Source: Betaproteobacteria bacterium | GTDB taxonomy: Bacteria; Pseudomonadota; Gammaproteobacteria; Burkholderiales; SG8-39 | DNA: 64,000 bases | Reading direction: 5' to 3' | Assembly: GCA_016195915.1 (NCBI GenBank) | Contig: JACPYS010000006.1 | Coordinates: 1-64,000, forward strand | In this document: piece after piece, positions 30,842-45,565 of the stretch | How positions within the stretch are numbered: the stretch's first letter is position 1 | Layout of the letters: every line of letters begins with the position of its first letter | Made by a program: the position numbers and the translations under genes | Notes under the pieces: model-generated | Told to the model about the DNA's origin: nothing | The model's input: the letters and a program-made list of their open reading frames with translations, nothing else | Database searches by the model: none

Positions 30842-30848
30842 AGTGGCC

Positions 30849-31427: not shown

Positions 31428-32033
31428 TTAAGCAGCGGCTCGCTCGGAGCTGGCGCGGGATAGCGCTTTGTACTCTGCCGCGCGGCGCAAGAGCTCCTCC
31501 CGGTTCGGGTCGTCCCTCGCGATAGCAAGCTCGTAAGGTATCTCTTCGTCATTGCCTTCCCTGTTCCGCCAAACTTTCGCCCACGCGCCGTTCTCGTCGT
31601 GGGTGACGTCGATCAACTTCTCCGACAAGTCCTCGCGAAACCTCTCGGCGAGGCTGGCGAGAATGCGCGTCTCGCGAGCGCTGAAATGCGAATCGTCAAA
31701 GGCGCGCTTCGCAATCACATTCTCGCGGACGCAGTCGTATACCTTCTCAGGTCGAATCTCGATTGCCGCGGCGATGTCAGCGTCAAGGTCATCCCAAACC
31801 TGCACGAGTTCAGCCGGCACGGGGCCCATCTTCCAGGCCCGATATTCCATGCCGGAAACCGAGCGGCCGGTTTCGCGGAAATGCCCGAAATCAAGCAGGT
31901 AAAGCAGCTTGAACAGTTTGATTTTGCCGAGGCCGCCAACGCGCTCGGCAAAGAAAAGAATTGCGTTGATCAGCTTTTCGCGGGAGCGCGAGACAAGCAT
32001 CCGGTCCCTTCCCTGGCTGCGCGGATTGCGCAA
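31428..32033 (-). CDS. Panacea domain (DUF4065/SocA-like) protein, probable antitoxin
   Basis: REKLINAILFFAERVGGLGKIKLFKLLYLLDFGHFRETGRSVSGMEYRAWKMGPVPAEL; ATG could be internal. Confidence 0.8.
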   Translation of the reverse strand: MRNPRSQGRDRMLVSRSREKLINAILFFAERVGGLGKIKLFKLLYLLDFGHFRETGRSVSGMEYRAWKMGPVPAELVQVWDDLDADIAAAIEIRPEKVYDCVRENVIAKRAFDDSHFSARETRILASLAERFREDLSEKLIDVTHDENGAWAKVWRNREGNDEEIPYELAIARDDPNREELLRRAAEYKALSRASSERAAA

Positions 32034-32312: not shown

Positions 32313-33020
32313 ATGTCTGAACTTGTTGCCGATTGTCCGCGTTGCGGTTCCCGCAAGATCACATTCGACGTTACGCAGGAGCACCACATCGGAATCCGGT
32401 ACGACTGGCAGTACTGGTTCGAGGCGTTTTGTGTTTGTCGCCATTGCAAATGCTCGACTATCTTTGTCCTGAGCCAAAACGTGGACTCAGATCATGGGAT
32501 TGTTCAAAAGCAAGGCCTGTTGAAGCTCACGGGTGCCGTCAATCGATACATGGATATCGAGAGCTTTGTCAGTTTGAAGGATAGTGCTGCCGTAGAACCT
32601 CCAAAGCATTTGCCGGAGGAGATCACGGCCGCCTTTGCCGAAGGCGCGAAGTGTTTGGCCATCGGTTGCCACAATGCAGCCGGAACGATGTTTCGTCTTT
32701 GCGTCGATATTGCAACCCGCGATAAGCTTCCCGCCACGGATGAAAGAGGGCTAAACGCCAAAATCCGCCGCAACCTCGGTATGAGGCTGCCTTGGCTCAT
32801 CGACAATGGTTTACTGCCCGAAGCGCTTCGCGAGTTGTCGTCGTGCGTGAAGGAGGACGGAAACGACGGCGCCCACGCGGGAACCCTGTCGAAGGAAGAT
32901 GCTGATGATCTGCTCGACTTTACGATTGCGCTTCTCGAGCGCATGTACACAGAGCCGGAGCGGCTTCGGCTGGCAAAGGAGCGCCGGGAATCGCGGCGCA
33001 AACCTCCGTCGAGCATTTAA
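32313..33020 (+). CDS. DUF4145-domain protein with N-terminal zinc-ribbon-like CxxC
   Basis: CPRCGSRKITFD...CRHC; ITAAFAEGAKCLAIGCHNAAGTMFRLCVDIATRDK; ELSSCVKEDGNDGAHAGTLSKEDADDLLDFTIALLERMY. Confidence 0.8.
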   Translation: MSELVADCPRCGSRKITFDVTQEHHIGIRYDWQYWFEAFCVCRHCKCSTIFVLSQNVDSDHGIVQKQGLLKLTGAVNRYMDIESFVSLKDSAAVEPPKHLPEEITAAFAEGAKCLAIGCHNAAGTMFRLCVDIATRDKLPATDERGLNAKIRRNLGMRLPWLIDNGLLPEALRELSSCVKEDGNDGAHAGTLSKEDADDLLDFTIALLERMYTEPERLRLAKERRESRRKPPSSI

Positions 33021-33046: not shown

Positions 33047-33517
33047 GTGAAAACTGAAATCGTCGCTTGGTGGGGCGCGATCCTAGCCACCATTGTTCTT
33101 TTTTGGGATGTCTACAAATGGCGGGCTGCGGGGCCCAAGTTGCGGGTCTCGGTTCAATCGGGAATGGAAAGCATCAATATGCTGCAGTACGACGGCAAGA
33201 CCCTCATACTCGTGAACGTCTCCAACTATGGAGATCGCCCAACCACATTCACGAACCTTGGCTATCTCTATTTTACGAATCTCTGGAATCGCATACGTCG
33301 ACGCCCTGACAAGGCAGCAATTATTCCGAATCCGAGTGATGTTCATCCTCTGCCGCATGAACTAAAGCAAGGGAGCCTCTGGTCCGGTATTGCGATCCAG
33401 GACGATCAAGTGACCAAATGGGCGAAAGAGGGCCGTCTTTACTGTGTTCTTTACCACTCGCATAGCGAGCGACCGATCTATCGTCGAGTGGTCGCGCATG
33501 AGCGGTCTAACGCATAG
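33047..33517 (+). CDS. single-TM hypothetical protein
   Basis: N-terminal TM IVAWWGAILATIVLFWDVYKW; same strand between DUF4145 and DUF499 genes. Confidence 0.6.
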   Translation: MKTEIVAWWGAILATIVLFWDVYKWRAAGPKLRVSVQSGMESINMLQYDGKTLILVNVSNYGDRPTTFTNLGYLYFTNLWNRIRRRPDKAAIIPNPSDVHPLPHELKQGSLWSGIAIQDDQVTKWAKEGRLYCVLYHSHSERPIYRRVVAHERSNA

Positions 33518-33560: not shown

Positions 33561-36500
33561 ATGAAAACCGTCCGCGACGCCTGCCAGCTCCAGCCGAACG
33601 CCCTTTCCATCAAGCTCGGTGACCAAATCGAGCAACTCGATGACCTGATTGCGACCGAGGGCGACGGTGCCGCCTTCTTTGAGAAGACGCACATCACCCA
33701 GGGTATGCAGGACCTGATCAGCGAGGGCATCGCGCGTCTGGCCGGAGTTTCGACGCAGGCGATTTTCCACCTCAAGCAGGCCATGGGCGGCGGCAAGACT
33801 CACCTGCTGGTCGGGTTTGGCTTGCTCGCCAAGCATCCAGGGTTGCGCAAGACGCATTGCGCCGGGATGGCCAATACGTCGGCGTTCCAGAGTGCCAACA
33901 TCGCCGCCTTCAACGGCCGCAATAACCCCGACCATTTCTTCTGGGGAGAAATCGCCAAGCAGCTCGACAAGGGCGAGCAATTCAAGGCTTTTTGGACCAG
34001 CGGTCCCAAGGCGCCGGACGAGAAGGACTGGCTCAAACTTTTTGAAGGCGATAAGCCCGTTCTCATCCTGCTCGACGAGATGCCGCCCTACTTTCACTAC
34101 CTCGACACGCAGAAGGTGGGCAACGGCACGGTCGCCGACATTGCCACCCGAGCGTTCGCCAATCTGCTCACAGCGGCGGGCAAGAAGAAGAACGTGTGCG
34201 TTGTGGTGTCCGACCTCGCCGCCGCCTATGACACCGGCGCCAAGCTCATCTACCGGGCACTCGAAGACGCGCGCGCCGAGCTCGGCCGCCAGGAACGGAA
34301 TATCACGCCGGTGGACCTCGCCGCCAACGAGATCTACGACATCCTGCGCAAGCGCCTGTTCAAGTCGCTTCCCGACAAGGCGGAGATCGGCGACATCGCC
34401 GAAGCCTTCGGCCGCAAGCTGGAAGAGGCCGCCAAGTCGAAAACCGCCAACCGCGGCGCCGAGGCGATCGCCGACGAGGTCGCTGCGACTTATCCCTTTC
34501 ATCCGCGGCTCAAAAATGTCATTGCGCTCTTCAAGGAAAACGAGCAATTCAAGCAGACGCGCGGCCTGATCGAACTCGTTTCGCGCCTGCTCAGGTCGGT
34601 TTGGGACCGTCAGGCCAACGACGTCTTCCTCATCGGCCCGCAGCACTTCGACTTGTCGGTGCCGGAGGTGCGAGACAAGCTGACCGAGATATCTGGCATG
34701 CGCGATGTCATCGCCAAGGATCTCTGGGACGCACAGCAATCCGCGCACGCCCAGATCATCGACCTGCAAACCGGCAAGGAGGCGGCGACGCAGATCGGCG
34801 CGCTGCTGCTTACCGCGAGCCTCTCCACCGCCGTCAACGCGGTGAAGGGCCTCACCCGGGAGGAAATGGTCGAGTGTCTTATCTCACCGCTGCGCGAGCC
34901 TTCGGATTTTCTGGCGGCTTTCGAGGAACTGGAGAAGGTCGCCTGGTACGTTCATCACACGCCGGAAGGCCGGTACTACTTCGATCGGCAGGAAAACCTC
35001 ACCAAACTCCTGCAAAGCCTCGCTCACGACGCGCCCGAAAACCAGGTGGACGATTTGATCCGGCATCGCCTGCGTGAGATGTTCAAGCCGGTGCGCAAGA
35101 CCGGATACGACGATGTGCTGCCCCTGCCCAGGCTGGAAGAGGTCGCCGATCGCGTACGCAGGGGGCGCGTGCTGCTCGTCGTAAGCCCGGATTCGAAAAT
35201 CCCACCGGAAGAAGTGCAGAAGTTCTTCGAGGGCCTCAGTCAGAAGAACAATCTGTGCGTGCTCACCGGCGACAAGACGGCGATGGGCAGCGTGGAAAAG
35301 GCCGCTCGCCAACTCTTCGCGGCGCAGAAAGCCGATGGCCGTATTCCCAAGGGACATCCGCAGCGGGACGACCTCGAGCGAAAGCAGCAGAGCTACGAAC
35401 AGGACTTCAACTCGACCATCCTCAACTTGTTCGACAAGGTGCTGTTTCCGCGCCACCGCGCCGGAAAGATTGACCTTGCTTCCAAACCTCTGGATATGAC
35501 CCGCGACGCCACCAAACCCTTCAATGGTGAGGAGCAGATCGAGAAGACGCTGGCCTCCCACCCGCTGAAGCTCTACCTCGACGTGGAAAAGGAGTTCGGC
35601 GCTATCCGCGACAAGGCGCAGGACCTGCTGTGGCCGGAGAACCAGGACGAAGCGCGCTGGTCTGATGTTGCCGACCGCTACGCCGAGCAGGCCGGCATGC
35701 CGTGGCTGCCGCCCAAGGGCCTCGATACACTCAAGTCGATCGCCTGTAACCGCGGGCTGTGGGAGGACCTCGGCAACGGCTACGTGACGAAGAAGCCGAA
35801 GAAGAAGCGCACTACGGCCCAAGTGATTGCCGAGCCCGAACTCGGCGACGAAGGCAAGGTTCGTTTGCGCGTCAATCCGCAAAACGCCGGCCCCGCGCCT
35901 CGGATCTATTACGCTGAAGAAGCGCCTGTCTCCCAGTCGAGCGCGCAGTTGAAGGACAACCCATACACAACGAACGCTCTGCGAGTGAGCTTCCTTGTGT
36001 GCGACGTATCGGGCCAGTACGAGACGGGCGATCCGGTGACCTGGTCCAATAAACTCGTGCTGCGCAATGAACTTTTGGTGAACGGCGGTAAGCGCAGCGT
36101 CGAGCTATTCGTCGCGCCCAAGGGATCGATCCGCTATACGCTTGACGGTAGCGAGCCGCGAGAGGGCATCGCGTACGAGGGGCCGATCGCAATCAGTGAC
36201 AAAGAGGTGATACTGCGCGCCTTCGCGGAGGCAGACGGAATCGAGACCAAGTCAGAGTTCCGCTTTCAGGCCGAGGGCAAGAAGGGGGTCCAGATTGACG
36301 ACGTGAAACCTGGACGGCTCATCTCGCGCATCGGTAGAAAGCTCGACTCGCGCGGCAAAACTTTCGAGGGGCTGAAGCAGGCCGCCGAGAAGTCCGCCAC
36401 CTTTGAGGGCATTGTTCTCACGGTAGGTCAGGGTAACCAGATGATCGGCGTCAACATTGGCGACATCGCCGTGGACGCTGCATTCATCGAAGCGCTGCTC

Positions 36501-36641
36501 GTCAAGGTACTCGAGAAGTTCACGCCGGACACGCTGGTCACGATGACCTTCCGCAAGGCCCACTTTGCATCGGGCCACGACCTCAAGGACTTTGCCCGGA
36601 AGCTGGGAATCGAGTTGCAGCAAGGGGATGTCGAGCAGTGA
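33561..36641 (+). CDS. DUF499-domain ATPase (anti-phage-associated type)
   Basis: Walker A AMGGGKTHLLVGFGLLA, Walker B KPVLILLDEMPPYF; operonic with DUF3780, DUF1156 and PLD-helicase genes. Confidence 0.88.
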   Translation: MKTVRDACQLQPNALSIKLGDQIEQLDDLIATEGDGAAFFEKTHITQGMQDLISEGIARLAGVSTQAIFHLKQAMGGGKTHLLVGFGLLAKHPGLRKTHCAGMANTSAFQSANIAAFNGRNNPDHFFWGEIAKQLDKGEQFKAFWTSGPKAPDEKDWLKLFEGDKPVLILLDEMPPYFHYLDTQKVGNGTVADIATRAFANLLTAAGKKKNVCVVVSDLAAAYDTGAKLIYRALEDARAELGRQERNITPVDLAANEIYDILRKRLFKSLPDKAEIGDIAEAFGRKLEEAAKSKTANRGAEAIADEVAATYPFHPRLKNVIALFKENEQFKQTRGLIELVSRLLRSVWDRQANDVFLIGPQHFDLSVPEVRDKLTEISGMRDVIAKDLWDAQQSAHAQIIDLQTGKEAATQIGALLLTASLSTAVNAVKGLTREEMVECLISPLREPSDFLAAFEELEKVAWYVHHTPEGRYYFDRQENLTKLLQSLAHDAPENQVDDLIRHRLREMFKPVRKTGYDDVLPLPRLEEVADRVRRGRVLLVVSPDSKIPPEEVQKFFEGLSQKNNLCVLTGDKTAMGSVEKAARQLFAAQKADGRIPKGHPQRDDLERKQQSYEQDFNSTILNLFDKVLFPRHRAGKIDLASKPLDMTRDATKPFNGEEQIEKTLASHPLKLYLDVEKEFGAIRDKAQDLLWPENQDEARWSDVADRYAEQAGMPWLPPKGLDTLKSIACNRGLWEDLGNGYVTKKPKKKRTTAQVIAEPELGDEGKVRLRVNPQNAGPAPRIYYAEEAPVSQSSAQLKDNPYTTNALRVSFLVCDVSGQYETGDPVTWSNKLVLRNELLVNGGKRSVELFVAPKGSIRYTLDGSEPREGIAYEGPIAISDKEVILRAFAEADGIETKSEFRFQAEGKKGVQIDDVKPGRLISRIGRKLDSRGKTFEGLKQAAEKSATFEGIVLTVGQGNQMIGVNIGDIAVDAAFIEALLVKVLEKFTPDTLVTMTFRKAHFASGHDLKDFARKLGIELQQGDVEQ

Positions 36642-37213
36642 GCGAGCGGCCCAGGACCGTCGACTTCGGTGCGCCCGACGCATACGGCGCGCATCTCTTC
36701 CGCGTCGAGATACCGGCCTCACGGAACGAGTCGGTGGTGATCGTTGAGGATTACGGCTATCGTGGCCAGCAGGGCGGCATTCCGCGCGAGGAGGAGCGCG
36801 TCGTTCTCGCACGTCCCGTGTGGTCCGCGATCGCCGATATCGCCCGCCGCGAATTCAACGATCGCCTCAAGGCCGCGAATGTTCTGACCGGCCGCTGGCA
36901 CACCGGCATCAACCTGGTGGACCGGCTACTCGGCAAGGAACTGTGCGTGCTGGCGTGGGCGGCCGAGACGGCCAACGGAGAGCAGCTTCCGGTCATTTGT
37001 AGCAAGTGGGCTGCCTTGCGTCCCGAGGAGCGTTGGTGGCTTTTTTCGGTGACGGTTGCCGAGGCCGGCTTGCCTGAGGACAGGCAGCGCGGCTGGCGGC
37101 GCGCATTGTTCCTCGCGCTTTCCGACGGCGAGAAGCCCGTGTCGCGCAAGCGGCGACCGCGCCCCGTCGAGCAGGACCTGTTCAAGCTGCCGTTGTTCGA
37201 GGATTCTGAGTGA
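36638..37213 (+). CDS. DUF3780-like protein
   Basis: VDFGAPDAYGAHLFRVEIPASRNESVVIVEDYGY...; overlaps both neighbours by 4 nt. Confidence 0.7.
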   Translation: MSERPRTVDFGAPDAYGAHLFRVEIPASRNESVVIVEDYGYRGQQGGIPREEERVVLARPVWSAIADIARREFNDRLKAANVLTGRWHTGINLVDRLLGKELCVLAWAAETANGEQLPVICSKWAALRPEERWWLFSVTVAEAGLPEDRQRGWRRALFLALSDGEKPVSRKRRPRPVEQDLFKLPLFEDSE

Positions 37214-40200
37214 GCGCGGCGGTCACGCCGTTCGCGTTGAAGGATGCGCCCGCGCTCATCGAGCGGCTGCTGCCGGTGCAAAAGCTTTCGGCCGAGTCCT
37301 ATAAGGAGCAGATGGCAGGTAGCGCGAAGACACTGACGGCGCTCGGCACCTACTGGAAGGGCCGCAAGCCACTTATCCTCAATAAGGCCTGCATCCTCGG
37401 CTGCCTGCTGCCCGCCACCGATGACCCGGCGCGCGACCTGGCAATCTTCGAGAAGCTAATGGCCATGGACGACGAGTCTTTCGCTGTACGCTGGAAGCGT
37501 CGCCCCAAGCCGCAGGAGATTCTCGGGACGCTTTCCATCGCGTGCATCACCGATTACTTCACTGTGGAACCTGAGGGCGTCCTGCCGTCTTCCACGCCGG
37601 TGGACTTGTCGGTGCCGGAGTACGATGCGGTGAAGGTCGCCTGGCGCGCGGACATCACCGAACTGGAGCGCCGTCGCCTCGAAGCGCAAATGCTTCCTCG
37701 CGCACCATACCGCGAGCGCGTGGATCAGGCGCAGCGACCCGAGGAAGTCCTGAACATCGTCCACGACCACATCTGGGATGCTGTCAACGGCCACTTGGGC
37801 ACCAATGCCCGATCGTTCCCGGAACTCATCGAACAACTTGGCCTCATGCGCTACGGCCACCGGCCGCGCATGGCCGATACCTTTTGCGGCTCCGGGCAGA
37901 TTCCATTCGAGGCGGTGCGACTTGGCTGCGACGTCTATGCCTCCGACCTCAACCCGGTGGCGTGCATGCTCACGTGGGGTGCCTTCAACATCGTCGGCGG
38001 CTCAGCGGAGACCCGTCAGAAGCTAGCGCAGGATCAGCAGGAACTCGTGCGCCGGGTGCAGGCGGAGATCGACGATCTTGGGGTCGAGAGGGACGACAAA
38101 GGCTGGCGCACCAAGGTGTTTCTCTACTGCGTGGAAGTCCGTTGCCCGCAGAGTGGGTGGATAGTGCCGCTTATACCGACCTTTATCGTCAGCAAGGGCT
38201 ACGGCGTGATTGCCGAACTGGTGCCGGATGCCAAGCATAAGCGCTACGACATCGTCATTCGCACTGGCCTAACGCGGGATCAATTTGAGGCAGCCACGCA
38301 AGGCACTCTGCGCTCTGACGGGAGAGGGCAAGACCCGTATCTGATTCACACTGTCGATGGCACAGAATATCGCACGAAGATCTCGACGTTGCGTGGCGAT
38401 TACCGCAAGGATGACGGCAAGAACGGCAATCGCCTGCGGTTGTGGGAGAAGCGCGACTTCAAACCTCGGCCGGACGATATCTTCCAGGAGCGCCTCTACT
38501 GCGTGCAGTGGATGCGGCCTAAGAAGAGTGGAAAGCTCTTCGACTACGAGTTTCGCGCCGTCACCCCCGAGGACTTGAAACGCGAGCGCATCGTCGACGA
38601 ATTCATCGCCCACCACTTCCCTGATTGGCAGGCCAATGGTTGGGTGCCGGACATGCGCATAGAGCCCGGCGCTGAGACCACGCGACTATTCCGTGAACGC
38701 GGCTGGACGCACTGGCACCACCTATGGAATCCGCGGCAGCTAATGTCACTTGGCATCATTCGCAAGAACATACCTAGCGCAGCGCTCGCAGTGATTTTCG
38801 GTGGCGTCTTGGATCATTCGAGCAAGCTCGGTGGGTGGACTACCTCTAGCGCAAGAATTTCCAAAGACGGACTGGATAGACAGATAGGTGGTGCGCAGAA
38901 TGTCACCACACACGTGTTCTACAACCAAGCACTGAATACCCTTTTTGCCTATGGATGCCGCTCAACAGTCGATCTGTTTGAAGTGTTGAAGAAGAAGATC
39001 AAGCACTTTCCAGTTAGCTGTAAATCAGAAGTGACCGCTACCAATGCATCTGACGTGCAATGCATCAGCGACATATACATCACCGACCCGCCCTACGGCG
39101 ACGCGGTGAAATATGAGGAGATCCTCGACTTCTTCATCGCCTGGCTTCGCAAGAACCCGCCTCCCGAGTTCGCGGACTGGGTCTGGGACAGCCGCCGCTC
39201 TCTTGCCATCAAGGGTGAAGATGAGGATTTTCGGCGAGGCATGGTAGCGGCCTATAAGCGAATGACCGAGTGCATGCCCGACAACGGCATCCAGGTCATC
39301 ATGTTCACGCACCAGTCCGGATCCATCTGGGCGGACATGGCCAACATCGTTTGGGCATCAGGACTGCAGGTCACAGCCGCGTGGTACGTCGTTACCGAAA
39401 CCGAAAGTGCGCTGCGTGAGGGAAGTAACGTGAAGGGCACTGTGCTGCTCGTGCTTCGTAAGCGGATGGGTCTGCACAAGACCACTCGCGACGACCTCGC
39501 GTGGGAAATCCAAGAAGAGGTCCGGAATCAGGTGGATTCTTTGGCGGGCCTCAATCAGGAGGCGAAGGGACTCTACCGCGACGAGAATGTCTTTGAGGAT
39601 GCCGACATCCAAATGGCCGGCTACGCAGCGGCGCTACGCGTGCTTACCCGCTATGCCGTGATCGACGGCCGGGACATGACAGCCGAGGCGATCCGCCCGC
39701 GCGTGAAGGGCGAGACCACCTTCGTGGACGGTCTTATCGTGTTCGCCGTGGACACCGCCAACCAGTGCCTCGTCCCGCAAGGCATTCCCCAGGTGCACTG
39801 GGACAAGCTCAGGGGCGCGGAGCGCTTCTACCTCAAGCTGCTCGATATGGAAGCTCGCGGCGCGAAGACGCTCGATAACTACCAGAACTTCGCCAAGGCC
39901 TTCAAGGTGCGCGATTTCAAGCCCCTATTGGCCAGCCAGAAAGCAAACGACGCGCGTCTGAAGAGCGCGGTCGAGTTCGGCCGCACCGAGATAAGCGAAG
40001 GATCGGAACTGCACGAGTCCGTGCTGCGCGCCGTGCTCTACGCGATGATGGAGCTGGTGAATAACGTGGACGGCAGCGAGGTGCTGGCCCACCTCATCCT
40101 CAACATCCCCGATTACTACAACGACATGACTCGGCGCACTCTCGCGGTGGAACTGGCCGACTACCTCGCGCGGCGGCTGGTCGACCTGCGCCCCGACGAG

Positions 40201-40254
40201 GCGAGCGCAGCGCGAGTGCTGTGCGAGTTGGTGAAGAACCAACGGTTGGGGTGA
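37210..40254 (+). CDS. DUF1156-domain adenine-specific DNA methyltransferase
   Basis: Motif I-like MADTFCGSGQIPFEAVRLGCDVYASDLNPVA and catalytic ITDPPYGDAVKYEEI (DPPY). Confidence 0.9.
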   Translation: MSAAVTPFALKDAPALIERLLPVQKLSAESYKEQMAGSAKTLTALGTYWKGRKPLILNKACILGCLLPATDDPARDLAIFEKLMAMDDESFAVRWKRRPKPQEILGTLSIACITDYFTVEPEGVLPSSTPVDLSVPEYDAVKVAWRADITELERRRLEAQMLPRAPYRERVDQAQRPEEVLNIVHDHIWDAVNGHLGTNARSFPELIEQLGLMRYGHRPRMADTFCGSGQIPFEAVRLGCDVYASDLNPVACMLTWGAFNIVGGSAETRQKLAQDQQELVRRVQAEIDDLGVERDDKGWRTKVFLYCVEVRCPQSGWIVPLIPTFIVSKGYGVIAELVPDAKHKRYDIVIRTGLTRDQFEAATQGTLRSDGRGQDPYLIHTVDGTEYRTKISTLRGDYRKDDGKNGNRLRLWEKRDFKPRPDDIFQERLYCVQWMRPKKSGKLFDYEFRAVTPEDLKRERIVDEFIAHHFPDWQANGWVPDMRIEPGAETTRLFRERGWTHWHHLWNPRQLMSLGIIRKNIPSAALAVIFGGVLDHSSKLGGWTTSSARISKDGLDRQIGGAQNVTTHVFYNQALNTLFAYGCRSTVDLFEVLKKKIKHFPVSCKSEVTATNASDVQCISDIYITDPPYGDAVKYEEILDFFIAWLRKNPPPEFADWVWDSRRSLAIKGEDEDFRRGMVAAYKRMTECMPDNGIQVIMFTHQSGSIWADMANIVWASGLQVTAAWYVVTETESALREGSNVKGTVLLVLRKRMGLHKTTRDDLAWEIQEEVRNQVDSLAGLNQEAKGLYRDENVFEDADIQMAGYAAALRVLTRYAVIDGRDMTAEAIRPRVKGETTFVDGLIVFAVDTANQCLVPQGIPQVHWDKLRGAERFYLKLLDMEARGAKTLDNYQNFAKAFKVRDFKPLLASQKANDARLKSAVEFGRTEISEGSELHESVLRAVLYAMMELVNNVDGSEVLAHLILNIPDYYNDMTRRTLAVELADYLARRLVDLRPDEASAARVLCELVKNQRLG

Positions 40255-40270
40255 GGAGCGGGAACCGAAC

Positions 40271-41746
40271 GTGGCCACTACGTCCATCTTCGTCAGTAGC
40301 GTGCAGAAGGAACTGGCCGAGGAACGCCGCGCGGTCAAGGCGTTCGTGGAAGGCGACGCGCTCCTGCGGCGATTCTTCACGGCTTTCCTGTTCGAGGACC
40401 TGCCCGCCGCCGACCGCCGGGCTGACGAGGTGTATCTGGAGGAAGTCGGGCGCTGCGCGATCTATGTGGGTTTGTTCGGCAACGACTACGGCTACGAAGA
40501 CAAGGACGGCGTGTCGCCCACGGAACGTGAGTTCGATCGCGCTACCGAGCGCGGCAAGCCGCGGTTCGTTTTCGTCAAAGGTGCGGACGACAAGGCACGC
40601 CACCCGAAGATGGAAGCTCTGGTCGGCAAAGCGGGTGCGCAGCTTATCCGGCGGCGTTTCTCAGGCGTCTCCGAGCTGACTGGTGCGCTCTATGCAAGCC
40701 TCGTTGAGCATCTGGAACGCACCGGCTGGTTGCGAACCAAACCATTCGATGCTGCCGCTTGCCCGGGCGCATCGCTCGAGGATCTCGCCACCGAGAAACT
40801 GGATCTGTTCCTGTCGCGCGCCCAGTCGCAGCGGGGCTATCCACTGGGACCCGGTACTCCCGTAGAGACGGCTCTGGCACATCTCAATCTGCTCGACGCT
40901 CGACAGCCCAGTCATGCCGCCATGCTTCTTTTCGGCCGTCAGCCGCAGCGGTTTCTGCTTACCTCCGAAGTCAAGTGCATGCACTTCCACGGGTTGGAGG
41001 TCCGCAAGCCGATTCCCTCGTACCATATTTACAAGGGCACGGTGTTCGAACTCGTGGACCAAGCCCTGGACTTCGTCATGTCTAAGATAGACCGCAGGGT
41101 CGGCACGCGGGCGCTTGGTCCGCAGGCGCCGGTCGAATACGAACTGCCCCCAGAGGCTGTCGCGGAGGCCATCGTCAATGCGGTGACGCACCGCGACTAC
41201 GCCAGCAATGCCAGCGTGCAGGTCATGCTCTTTTCCGATCGGCTTGAGATCTGGAATCCGGGCGAGCTGCCGTCTGTGCTGACGCTGGACGAACTGCGCC
41301 GGCCCCACGCCTCCATTCCGCGCAACCCCCTCATTGCCGAGCCGATGTTCCTGGCCAAGTATTCTGAAAAGGCCGGCAGCGGCATTCTGGAAATGATCGC
41401 ACGGTGCCGCGAGGCAGGGCTGTCGGCACCTGAGTTCCGGCAGAGCGGCGGGCAGTTCATCCAGACCCTTGGACGGGCGCCGTCCGAGGCTACCCCGGAA
41501 GTCACCCCGGAAGTCACCCCGGAAGTCACCCCGGAAGTTCGCCTGGTCCGGGTGCTGGTCGGAGAAATGACCCGGCAGCAACTTCAGCGAGCGCTCGGAC
41601 TGAGGGATGACGAGCACTTCAGAAAGGCTTATCTGCAACCCGCCCTAGATGCGGGGCTGATTGAAATGACGATTTCAGACAGGCCTCGAAGCAGCCGGCA
41701 GAAGTATCGGCTCACTGCACAAGGGGACAAAAAGGGACGAACATGA
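40271..41746 (+). CDS. DUF4062 domain protein with ATP-binding transcriptional-regulator-like C-terminus
   Basis: TSIFVSSVQKELAEERRAVKAFVEGDALLRRFFTAFLFEDLP...IYVGLFGNDYGYED (DUF4062); EAIVNAVTHRDYASNASVQVMLFSDRLEIWNPGELP (HATPase_c_4-like); GTG start. Confidence 0.85.
   Translation: MATTSIFVSSVQKELAEERRAVKAFVEGDALLRRFFTAFLFEDLPAADRRADEVYLEEVGRCAIYVGLFGNDYGYEDKDGVSPTEREFDRATERGKPRFVFVKGADDKARHPKMEALVGKAGAQLIRRRFSGVSELTGALYASLVEHLERTGWLRTKPFDAAACPGASLEDLATEKLDLFLSRAQSQRGYPLGPGTPVETALAHLNLLDARQPSHAAMLLFGRQPQRFLLTSEVKCMHFHGLEVRKPIPSYHIYKGTVFELVDQALDFVMSKIDRRVGTRALGPQAPVEYELPPEAVAEAIVNAVTHRDYASNASVQVMLFSDRLEIWNPGELPSVLTLDELRRPHASIPRNPLIAEPMFLAKYSEKAGSGILEMIARCREAGLSAPEFRQSGGQFIQTLGRAPSEATPEVTPEVTPEVTPEVRLVRVLVGEMTRQQLQRALGLRDDEHFRKAYLQPALDAGLIEMTISDRPRSSRQKYRLTAQGDKKGRT
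41492..41539 (+). repeat. four tandem 12-bp repeats encoding TPEV
   Basis: accccggaagtc x4 (last ends gtt). Confidence 0.95.
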
Positions 41747-42105
41747 TCAAGAAAGCCGACGGAGGGGCAGCCTATGTGGTGGCAATTAAATGGCTCATGA
41801 ATGGCTCAAACGGCTCGGCGGCGCAGAACCGCGGAGATGGCTTAAACGGTTCCGCCACGGCTAACGGAGCACGAGGCGACGGGCATACCAAAGAGGGCCG
41901 CAAAGCCGGCCACAAAGACATCGGGCGGGAAATGAACCACATCCGCCGCTACTCCTTGCGCCGCCAGTGCCTCGATCAAGCCTTCTACGGGACATTTATG
42001 GGACATATGAGACAGACGCGGGAACAACCCCTGTGCGCCGCAAACCCGCCGGTCCTGCAAGCAAGGCACAATGAAGGGGACAAGAAGGGGACAAAGGGGA
42101 CATGA
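41743..42105 (+). CDS. hypothetical ORF containing a partial duplicate of the PLD-helicase N-terminus
   Basis: NHIRRYSLRRQCLDQAFYG matches SEIQRFSSRRQRLDHAFLS at the start of the next gene. Confidence 0.4.
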   Translation: MIKKADGGAAYVVAIKWLMNGSNGSAAQNRGDGLNGSATANGARGDGHTKEGRKAGHKDIGREMNHIRRYSLRRQCLDQAFYGTFMGHMRQTREQPLCAANPPVLQARHNEGDKKGTKGT

Positions 42106-44813
42106 GCGAGATCCAGCGCTTCTCCTCGCGCCGCCAGCGCCTCGACCACGCCTTCCTCAGCGTGAGGTTGAAGGGGGCGAAGTCCTATAGGCGTATCGCC
42201 GGCTACTTCCGCAGTTCAATCTTCGAGCTCGTCGGCGAAGAGATCGCCGCGATCCCCAAGGTACAAATCGTCTGCAACAGCGAGTTGGACGCAGCCGATG
42301 TGGCCGTCTCGAAGCACGTCCGCGAGACCGCGTTGAAGGAGCGCTGGAACGAAGCGCCGTCGGAGGTTGAAGCGCTGCTCCACCGGGAGCGCTATCGCCG
42401 GCTGCATGAGTTGCTGACCAGCGGCCGGGTCGAGATCCGCGTGGTGCCGAAGGACCGCGTCTTCATCCACGGCAAGGCCGGCGTCATCGAAGCGGCCGAC
42501 GGATCGAAGACCTGTTTCCTCGGTTCGATCAACGAAACCAGGAGCGCCTTTGCGCAGAATTACGAAATCCTCTGGGAGGACCCTTCGCCGGAAGGCGTCG
42601 CTTGGGTCGAAGAGGAGTTCGATGCGCTCTGGAAGGACGCCTATCCGCTGCCCGACGCCATCGTCGAGGAGATCAAGCGGGTCGCCGATCGCGTCGAGAT
42701 CCGCTTCGAGGACGCGAAGACCGGGGAACTGCCCGCGGCGGCGCTCGCCGAGAGCCCAATCTATCGCGGTGGAGAACAGCTCCAGCCATGGCAGCGCTCA
42801 TTCGTGACGATGTTCCTCCAGCATCGCGAAACATACGGCAAGGCGCGCCTGCTGCTTGCTGATGAAGTTGGCGTCGGCAAGACGCTGTCGCTTGGGGCGA
42901 GCGCGATGATCTCGGTCCTGCTGGACGACGGTCCGGTGCTGATCCTCTGCCCGTCGACCCTCACGCTGCAGTGGCAGGTGGAACTCACTGACAAGCTCGG
43001 CATCCCGAGCGCGGTCTGGTCGTCCGCCAAGAAAGAGTGGCTCGATCCGAAGGGCCACGTCATCAAAACGCGCGGGCCCGAGGACATCGCCCGCTGCCCG
43101 TTTCGCGTTGCCATTGTGTCTACCGGATTGATCGTCCACAATTCCGAGGAACGCCAGCACCTTCTCGAACGCAAGTACGGGACGGTGGTCCTCGACGAGG
43201 CGCACAAGGCGCGGCGGCACGGTGGGCTGGGAGAAAAGAAGGACGAGCCGAACAACCTGCTCGACTTCATGTTTCGAATCGGGGCGCGCACCAGGAACTT
43301 GCTGCTCGGAACGGGGACGCCGATCCAGACCGAGGTCCGCGAGTTGTGGGACTTGCTTTGCATCCTGAATTCCGGTGCGGAGTTTGTGCTCGGGCGGGAG
43401 CCGTTTGCACGCTGGGCGGCCTGGGAGAAAGCGCTGCCCGTAGTGAAAGGTGATGGGATACCGGCGGATGAACGGGACGCCTGGGAGTGGCTGCGCAATC
43501 CTCTCCCGCCCGGGAGCGACGATGTGCTGTTCGCAACGCTGCGCTTGCAGCTCGGGCTGGCCGACCAGGCCTTCTTCACGGATCGCGGCTTCGGTTCGCT
43601 GGGATTCCTGGAACAGCAGGCGCTCGGACAGGCTCTGGCGCCCGGATTCCTGCGGGAGCACAACCCGATCGTTCGGCACACCGTGCTGCGCCGCCGGCAA
43701 ACGTTGGAAGACGCCGGATTGCTGGAGAAGGTCGCCGTGGATATCCATCCCGACCCGGATGCGCCAGCTACTGCATACACGGGTGTCGGATTCAGCGGCT
43801 TGGGCCTGCGGACGAATCATCCCTTTGATCTCGCCTATCAGGCGGCGGAAGCGTTCACATCGGCGTTGAAAAAGCGCACGAAGGCGGCCGGGTTCATGAA
43901 GACGTTGCTCCTGCAACGCATCTGTTCGAGCTTCGCATCCGGGCGAGCCACCGCCGAGAAAATGCTTCGCCGGGAAGTTCTTGAGGACGAGGAACAGGCG
44001 AAACTGATCGAAGAGGCGCTCAGTGCGCTCACGCCTGATGAGGCAGGATACCTTCGCACCATCGTCGAGGAACTTTCCCGCCCGGAAGCTCGCGACCCGA
44101 AGCTCGCCGCCGTGCGGTACTTCCTCACAGGGCGTCGCACCGAGGGCAAAACGTGGCTCGAGCACGGCTGCATCGTTTTCAGCCAGTACTACGACACGGC
44201 GTATTTCGTCGGTGCGGAACTCGCGAAACTGTTGCCGGGCGAAGCCGTGGGCGTCTACGCAGGCGCGGGCAAGAGCGGCCTCTTCCGCGGTAACGACTTC
44301 GCCTCGATCGAGCGTGAGGACATCAAGGCGGCAGTCAAGAAACACGAGATCCGTCTCCTTGTGGCGACGGATGCAGCATGTGAGGGCCTGAACCTGCAGA
44401 CCCTCGGTACACTCATCAACGTCGATTTACCCTGGAACCCGTCAAGGCTGGAACAGCGGCTCGGCCGGATCAAGCGATTCGGACAGGCGCGGCGGACGGT
44501 GGACATGCTGAATCTCGTCTATCACGAAACCCAGGACGAAAAGGTTTACCAGGTTCTTTCGCGCCGGATGAAGGACCGCTACGACATCTTCGGTGGGCTA
44601 CCGGACACCATCGAGGACGAATGGATCGAGACAATTGAGACGCTCGAGGAGATGATGGACGAGTACATCCATCTTCGAAAGCGGGCACGGGACGTGTTTG
44701 AGATGCGGTATCAGGAAACCATCGACCCCGACAAGGATCGCTGGGAGTTGTGTTCCAGGGTGCTCGCGCGCAGAGACGTTGTCGATCGGCTATCGGTACC
44801 GTGGAGTGGTTAG
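42102..44813 (+). CDS. phospholipase D-like domain + SNF2-family helicase (anti-phage-associated)
   Basis: PLD-like HGKAGVIEAADGSKTCFLGSINETRSAF; helicase LLADEVGVGKTLSLGA, VVLDEAHKARR, LLVATDAACEGLNLQTLGTLINVDLPWNPSRLEQRLGRIKRFGQ. Confidence 0.9.
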   Translation: MSEIQRFSSRRQRLDHAFLSVRLKGAKSYRRIAGYFRSSIFELVGEEIAAIPKVQIVCNSELDAADVAVSKHVRETALKERWNEAPSEVEALLHRERYRRLHELLTSGRVEIRVVPKDRVFIHGKAGVIEAADGSKTCFLGSINETRSAFAQNYEILWEDPSPEGVAWVEEEFDALWKDAYPLPDAIVEEIKRVADRVEIRFEDAKTGELPAAALAESPIYRGGEQLQPWQRSFVTMFLQHRETYGKARLLLADEVGVGKTLSLGASAMISVLLDDGPVLILCPSTLTLQWQVELTDKLGIPSAVWSSAKKEWLDPKGHVIKTRGPEDIARCPFRVAIVSTGLIVHNSEERQHLLERKYGTVVLDEAHKARRHGGLGEKKDEPNNLLDFMFRIGARTRNLLLGTGTPIQTEVRELWDLLCILNSGAEFVLGREPFARWAAWEKALPVVKGDGIPADERDAWEWLRNPLPPGSDDVLFATLRLQLGLADQAFFTDRGFGSLGFLEQQALGQALAPGFLREHNPIVRHTVLRRRQTLEDAGLLEKVAVDIHPDPDAPATAYTGVGFSGLGLRTNHPFDLAYQAAEAFTSALKKRTKAAGFMKTLLLQRICSSFASGRATAEKMLRREVLEDEEQAKLIEEALSALTPDEAGYLRTIVEELSRPEARDPKLAAVRYFLTGRRTEGKTWLEHGCIVFSQYYDTAYFVGAELAKLLPGEAVGVYAGAGKSGLFRGNDFASIEREDIKAAVKKHEIRLLVATDAACEGLNLQTLGTLINVDLPWNPSRLEQRLGRIKRFGQARRTVDMLNLVYHETQDEKVYQVLSRRMKDRYDIFGGLPDTIEDEWIETIETLEEMMDEYIHLRKRARDVFEMRYQETIDPDKDRWELCSRVLARRDVVDRLSVPWSG

Positions 44814-44838: not shown

Positions 44839-45222
44839 GTGATGGCGCAGCCTGACGAAATCGATGACGCGGAGCGCTGGGTGGTCGAATCCACTTTGCG
44901 CGAGCGCTACGGTCACCGCGTCGCGACGCAGCTCGCGGACACTGAACTGCGCGTCCAGCCCGATGACGAAACCCTTACGGCCTGCCCGACGCTGTATTGG
45001 GAGGAACGCGGTGCGGCGTTCGTCATAGTGAAGGTTGCGGACGGCCGCTGGCGCGCGATGTTCTTTTATCCGCAGGACGCGATCGAGGAACAGTTCGGCG
45101 CGGGCAGGCCAGAGTATGACGACCTGCTCGATTGCATCACCTCGGTGCTGCGAGCGCAGGCCGATCATGAGAAGGAGCGTCTTGGCGCTTGCTCCGGTAC
45201 CACCGGGAGCGACCTCGCATGA
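44839..45222 (+). CDS. hypothetical protein
   Basis: Complete ORF following the helicase gene. Confidence 0.55.
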   Translation: MMAQPDEIDDAERWVVESTLRERYGHRVATQLADTELRVQPDDETLTACPTLYWEERGAAFVIVKVADGRWRAMFFYPQDAIEEQFGAGRPEYDDLLDCITSVLRAQADHEKERLGACSGTTGSDLA

Positions 45223-45431: not shown

Positions 45432-45478
45432 CGGCTCCGTGCCTATGCGCGGGCGCGATAGAATCGCTGCTTGAATGC

Positions 45479-45565
45479 TGGTGCCGAGAAAGGGACTCGA
45501 ACCCCCACAGTGTTGCCACCGCCAGGACCTGAACCTGGTGCGTCTACCAATTCCGCCATCTCGGC
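45479..45565 (-). tRNA. tRNA-Leu (CAG anticodon)
   Basis: Reverse complement GCCGAGATGGCGGAATTGGTAGACGCACCAGGTTCAGGTCCTGGCGGTGGCAACACTGTGGGGGTTCGAGTCCCTTTCTCGGCACCA, long variable arm, anticodon stem CCAGG-TTCAGGT-CCTGG. Confidence 0.97.

Follow-up and report, generated by a model that had tools for sequence, protein, structure and literature searches.

The 64,000-nucleotide stretch of DNA analysed here (the window) contains what is almost certainly an intact Type-2 BREX-related (BR) operon, with a further gene coding for a DUF4062-HATPase_c_4-winged-helix protein embedded between its methylase and helicase genes. Judging from the sequence, the locus probably combines a restriction-modification-like core with an NADase-type abortive effector carried as cargo. 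A first-pass annotation of this DNA had suggested that the DUF4062 gene may be accessory and variable, and this suggestion is supported by related loci, in which the same position is either empty or filled by DarTG, Schlafen-like, Fic, AbiJ or DUF4062 genes.

Organization of the locus

The five reading frames of the first-pass annotation are all open on the + strand at the coordinates assigned to them, within 33561-44813, and the 4-nt overlaps at 36638-36641 and 37210-37213 both read GTGA. This five-gene arrangement, with its families and motifs, is not the result of chance. A small ORF in the interval between the DUF4062 gene and the helicase was absent from that gene list. The features are collected in Table 1.

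Table 1. Features of the BR locus and its right border (window coordinates)
Feature	Coordinates	Strand	Evidence and remarks
DUF499 AAA+ ATPase, 1026 aa	33561..36641	+	NF042962, PF04465, PF13287; Walker A GGGKTH at 76; Fn3-like residues 844-895
DUF3780 protein, 191 aa, putative modification reader	36638..37213	+	NF042961, PF12635; GTGA overlap with preceding gene
Predicted DUF1156 N6-adenine DNA methyltransferase, 1014 aa	37210..40254	+	NF042963; FCGSG at 225, DPPY at 626
Embedded (cargo) gene, 491 aa: DUF4062 + HATPase_c_4 + (TPEV)n linker + Fic-like_C winged helix	40271..41746	+	Pfam; KpSwz alignment; same-slot relatives; N-terminal model
Small ORF, 120 aa, probable junction debris	41743..42105	+	no family match; ATGA overlaps at both ends
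59-nt relic of helicase 5' end	41927..41985	+	81% identical to 42097-42155 (repeat search)
HKD/PLD-nuclease + SNF2 helicase, 903 aa	42102..44813	+	NF042964, PF13091, PF00176, PF00271; H123-x-K125, GSIN 141, Walker A 254, DEAH 365
tRNA-Leu(CAG)	45479..45565	-	right border of strain-specific stretch; same-genus homology restarts at 45449

The core operon

The anti-phage family names suggested at first pass hold for all four core products, each of which scores above the cut-off of an NCBIfam anti-phage equivalog: 1504.7 bits against 1200 for the DUF499 protein (NF042962), 233.7 against 200 for DUF3780 (NF042961), 1300.3 against 1000 for DUF1156 (NF042963) and 1242.9 against 1100 for the PLD-helicase (NF042964). 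The PADLOC check proposed at that stage was run and gave matches to DUF499 (1642.6 bits), DUF3780 (263), DUF1156_MTase (1471.4) and PLD_Helicase (1512.1). The first-pass reading had been staked on the recovery of DUF499, DUF3780 and DUF1156 in HMM searches, and all three exceed the curated cut-offs of Pfam and NCBIfam. Catalytic motifs are intact throughout the core (Walker A GGGKTH, FCGSG, DPPY, HxK...GSIN, DEVGVGKT and DEAH); the DPPY and FCGSG motifs noted earlier in the methylase, and the PLD and SNF2 parts of the helicase, were recovered by motif check and by Pfam (PF13091, PF00176), with PF13091 covering helicase residues 23-177 as an N-terminal HKD nuclease. Across 36 loci the methylase and helicase motifs show little or no variation, DPPY being present in 36/36.

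The Type-2 BR system was defined in 2026 by Rakesh & Krishnan (PMC12839542), whose main text describes a DUF499 ATPase, a stand-alone DUF3780, an N6-MTase and a helicase with an N-terminal HKD nuclease, with FnIII-like domains in about half of the Type-2 BR DUF499 ATPases. The window codes for a DUF499 AAA+ ATPase, a stand-alone DUF3780 protein, a DUF1156-type N6-MTase with its motifs and an N-terminal-HKD helicase, and every Type-2 BR feature that can be checked in sequence is present, including the Fn3-like part of the ATPase. Because it matches Type-2 BR gene for gene, the core is of an already known kind, and its original assignment to the 'methylase + ATPase + helicase class' was correct and can now be given this name. 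The same four genes, also represented by NF042961-NF042964 and by the PADLOC DUF499-DUF3780-DUF1156_MTase-PLD_Helicase set, occur in the same order in annotated plasmid copies from Acinetobacter, Halomonas, Stutzerimonas, Mesorhizobium, Pseudomonas and Methylocystis, which have no cargo between methylase and helicase; a Thiodictyon plasmid copy has a VapC toxin at that position.

What the window adds to Type-2 BR is the DUF4062-HATPase_c_4-winged-helix gene between MTase and helicase. The auxiliary effectors named in the main text of PMC12839542 are Schlafen, HEPN, PIN, HNH, REase and OLD; DUF4062, TIR, NADase and DarT do not occur in that main text, and its supplement might list DUF4062 cargo. 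The Hma or Type-1 BR system (HmaABC) shares the ATPase, MTase and helicase plan, and the window ATPase is homologous to HmaC (165.9 bits), but Type-1 BR as defined in the same main text is without DUF3780, and its nuclease is a C-terminal REase and not an N-terminal HKD domain.

The embedded DUF4062 gene

Pfam finds DUF4062 (PF13271, 73.6 bits against a cut-off of 24.7), HATPase_c_4 and Fic-like_C in the embedded gene. A 2026 study of the anti-phage system Swarozyc (PMC13174449) demonstrated that DUF4062 is a TIR-like NADase working through abortive infection, an identity absent from the first-pass annotation. A PDB search aligned KpSwz (10wc) with cargo residues 5-161 (157 residues; E 2.7e-4), a weak match of 23 bits to the N-terminal domain only, in which window residue E87 lies opposite Ala84 of the KpSwz chain. 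Going by alignment and numbering, this alanine would be the E97A mutation of the published KpSwz construct, so that E87 presumably corresponds to KpSwz E97. E87 is invariant in the window protein and five same-slot relatives, and the surrounding SPTExEFD is nearly invariant in all six. The cargo and Swarozyc share the N-terminal DUF4062 with this apparent catalytic glutamate; they differ in that the cargo ends in HATPase_c_4 and a winged helix (Fic-like_C) where KpSwz has a portal-binding domain, and in that the window gene lies inside a BR operon whereas KpSwz is encoded alone. As its C-terminus is unlike that of KpSwz, we describe the cargo as DUF4062-type and do not file it as Swarozyc.

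The AlphaFold model of the cargo is poor (mean pLDDT 62). In Foldseek searches its N-terminal part resembles the CMP N-glycosidase BcmB (TM to 0.78 by target), with TIR-STING and SARM1 ranked lower and flavodoxin- and Ras-like folds at similar E-values. The best matches to the whole model are to DIP2311 (E 9.6e-12), and it is the part outside the N-terminus that matches. Schlafen proteins of AlbA_2-HATPase_c_4-winged-helix architecture (DIP2311-like, and reported near BREX/BR loci) have the same HATPase_c_4 chassis as the cargo but an N-terminal AlbA_2 in place of the TIR-like DUF4062. A Schlafen AlbA_2-HATPase gene occupies the slot in locus L004, the core of which is sister to that of the DUF4062-bearing L044.

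No close homologue of the cargo was found at E <= 1e-60 in 398 other genomes of the phylum, and the cargo's own census is therefore small. DUF4062-HATPase relatives with 54% identity are present on Legionella plasmids (L055:12001-13512 and L056:9998-11501), where they lie beside partition genes and without a BR core; the L. hackeliae relative is split into two annotated frames. The DUF4062-HATPase gene thus does not need the BR core. In the window (41492-41538) and in L047, tandem 12-nt repeats encode (TPEV)n between HATPase_c_4 and the winged helix, and their copy number may differ between strains.

Occupancy of the methylase-helicase junction

Related loci, 51 in all, were gathered by a methylase scan of GTDB genome contigs, and a junction was scored as occupied when both flanking genes were placed and the gap exceeded 300 nt. 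In this sample, which is weighted toward close relatives of the window methylase and includes many metagenome bins with possibly incorrect species labels, 22/42 loci have an occupied methylase-helicase junction, against 12/44 for DUF3780-methylase and 1/41 for DUF499-DUF3780. The 22 methylase-helicase gaps hold DarTG in seven cases and DUF4062-HATPase genes in five, three are without a family assignment, and the remainder have single occupants: Schlafen AlbA_2-HATPase, Fic+Uma2, AbiJ_NTD4, DUF3800, a DUF4357-like protein of the PADLOC candidate PDC-S14, a TumE toxin and an AAA/GmrSD cluster. DarTG, the commonest occupant, is found in L009, L011, L012, L014, L025, L028 and L050, mainly under Deltaproteobacteria-type titles; it was family-scanned in L009 and (DarG) L025, and assigned in the other five through ORF layout and junction sequence. 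The methylase-helicase position is probably a modular effector slot, since DarTG, Schlafen-type, Fic, AbiJ or other genes are found there in other bacteria. Methylase and helicase are <=60 nt apart in 16/42 loci, and cargo is thus dispensable for retention of the core.

The DUF3780-methylase gap, which contains YhcG nucleases, PIN toxins, DarG and others, is evidently a second, less used slot. In Verrucomicrobia-labelled loci, YhcG/DUF1016 PD-(D/E)XK nucleases lie in this gap at L004:8844-10004, L026:7470-8639 and L044:7496-10004.

Histories of cargo and core

The five other loci with DUF4062 in the slot are divergent (73-82% core identity). On the tree of methylase and helicase, the distribution of DUF4062 cargo over its six rows requires six changes, which is no improvement on shuffled labels; such counts do not distinguish gains from losses. 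Cargo proteins pair L032 with L044, whereas the core groups L032 with L013 and L047. In AU tests of clades that were picked after the trees were seen, the cargo data reject the core grouping of L032, L013 and L047 (p-AU 5.6e-5) and the core data reject the cargo grouping of L032 and L044 (p-AU 0.018); L013+L047 alone is not rejected by the cargo data (p 0.106). Separate histories of cargo and core are the simplest reading of these trees.

Proposed function and alternative readings

In the explanation that we favor, the DUF1156 enzyme would modify host DNA by adenine methylation within a specific motif, the DUF499 ATPase and DUF3780 would scan DNA and recognise what is unmodified or foreign, and the HKD-SNF2 helicase would translocate on the recognised DNA and cut it. 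The DUF4062-HATPase-winged-helix protein would provide a second, fail-safe layer, its variable C-terminus perhaps sensing infection or failure of the core, upon which the TIR-like domain would destroy NAD+ and the infection would be aborted. Least certain in this scheme is that cargo and core are functionally linked. We suggest only tentatively that the slot is dedicated to exchangeable suicide effectors, and that its DUF4062 occupant is a guard-type NADase wired to the core, firing when the core is defeated or engaged and built on a Schlafen-type chassis with swapped heads (TIR-like NADase or AlbA_2 RNase).

Although we do not favor it, the DUF4062 gene could well be a passenger that sits in a permissive gap as a stand-alone defence gene, unlinked in function to the BR core. 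This agrees with the two-layer explanation on the core and on the enzyme type of the cargo and differs from it only on the link; the Legionella relatives without a core, the differing histories of cargo and core, and the junction debris with its helicase relic, which suggests recombination, all speak for it. However, the same family is found at the same junction in five other loci despite their divergence, and this junction is strongly preferred over DUF499-DUF3780. The stop of the cargo also overlaps the start of the helicase in several of those loci, so that cargo and core probably share transcription and translation. It is unlikely that the gene instead regulates transcription of the operon or serves as its sensor, with the DIP2311-like HATPase_c_4/winged-helix chassis and not NAD+ destruction doing the work. 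DIP2311 is indeed the best match to the whole model, DIP2311-like proteins are named 'transcriptional regulator' in Pfam, and the cargo C-terminus is a winged helix; but a regulator does not account well for the near-invariance of the catalytic glutamate and its surroundings in the six slot proteins, for the toxins and effectors that make up most of the other identified occupants, or for the many loci that keep the core without cargo.

Membership in Class 1 DISARM or canonical BREX is highly improbable and was rejected. The helicase does give weaker matches to DrmD and BrxH, but its DrmD score (164.9 bits) is far below the cut-off of 610, neither PglZ nor a DrmA/DrmB-type partner is present among the ten genes scanned (31.4-45.2 kb), and the equivalog models of the four-gene system all pass.

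The core is a further example of a system that is annotated but has received little experimental study, and the slot is the useful part. Should effectors of unrelated families that target NAD+ or nucleotides (DarTG, DUF4062 NADase, Fic, Schlafen-type) prove to recur in one junction and share its transcript, this would support a layered 'restrict first, then die' design, one directly testable through cargo swap or deletion within a single operon. The locus also connects the recently discovered DUF4062 NADases with BREX-related systems.

Genomic setting

The segment 30843-45449 has no counterpart in one same-genus genome at either of its two flanks, homology ending at 30843 and restarting at 45449. 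These flanks are on different contigs in the relative, and it therefore does not offer a clean empty site. The right flank, tRNA-Leu(CAG)-rnr-rlmB, is conserved in the family and its other side is variable; DUF3780 is present in 3/98 family genomes. An island with tRNA-derived direct repeats and an integrase was considered and rejected, as no such repeats are among the 20 largest repeat families and no integrase is among the genes scanned. The upstream genes 31428-32033, 32313-33020 and 33047-33517 and the downstream gene 44839-45222 have no tblastn homologue in the 51 related loci and for this reason were left out as parts of the system. The gene at 31428-32033 (- strand) codes for a Panacea/SocA-like antitoxin-type protein (PF13274, 64 bits, below the NCBIfam SocA cut-off), and that at 32313-33020 for a DUF4145 protein weakly similar to PADLOC PD-T7-4 (E 1.1e-6).

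The cargo-helicase junction

The small ORF between cargo and helicase matches no family in PADLOC, Pfam or NCBIfam and contains a truncated copy of the helicase 5' end; it was rejected as a real gene and probably yields no functional protein. The junction is a 363-nt stretch in which the start of the helicase is copied over 59 nt at 81% identity and GGGGACA words are repeated; it is likely a recombination scar. Derivation of the relic from a foreign helicase was considered and not adopted, as it is 78% identical at best to the other sampled helicases, none being closer than the window's own. GGGGACA-type repeats are found at cargo-helicase junctions of unrelated bacteria, at 41721-41736 and 42074-42103 in the window and at L003:14563-14578, and similar words precede the helicase start in L044 and L046. 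These repeats encode KGDKKGTKGT-like tails and could be sites of recombination or slippage.
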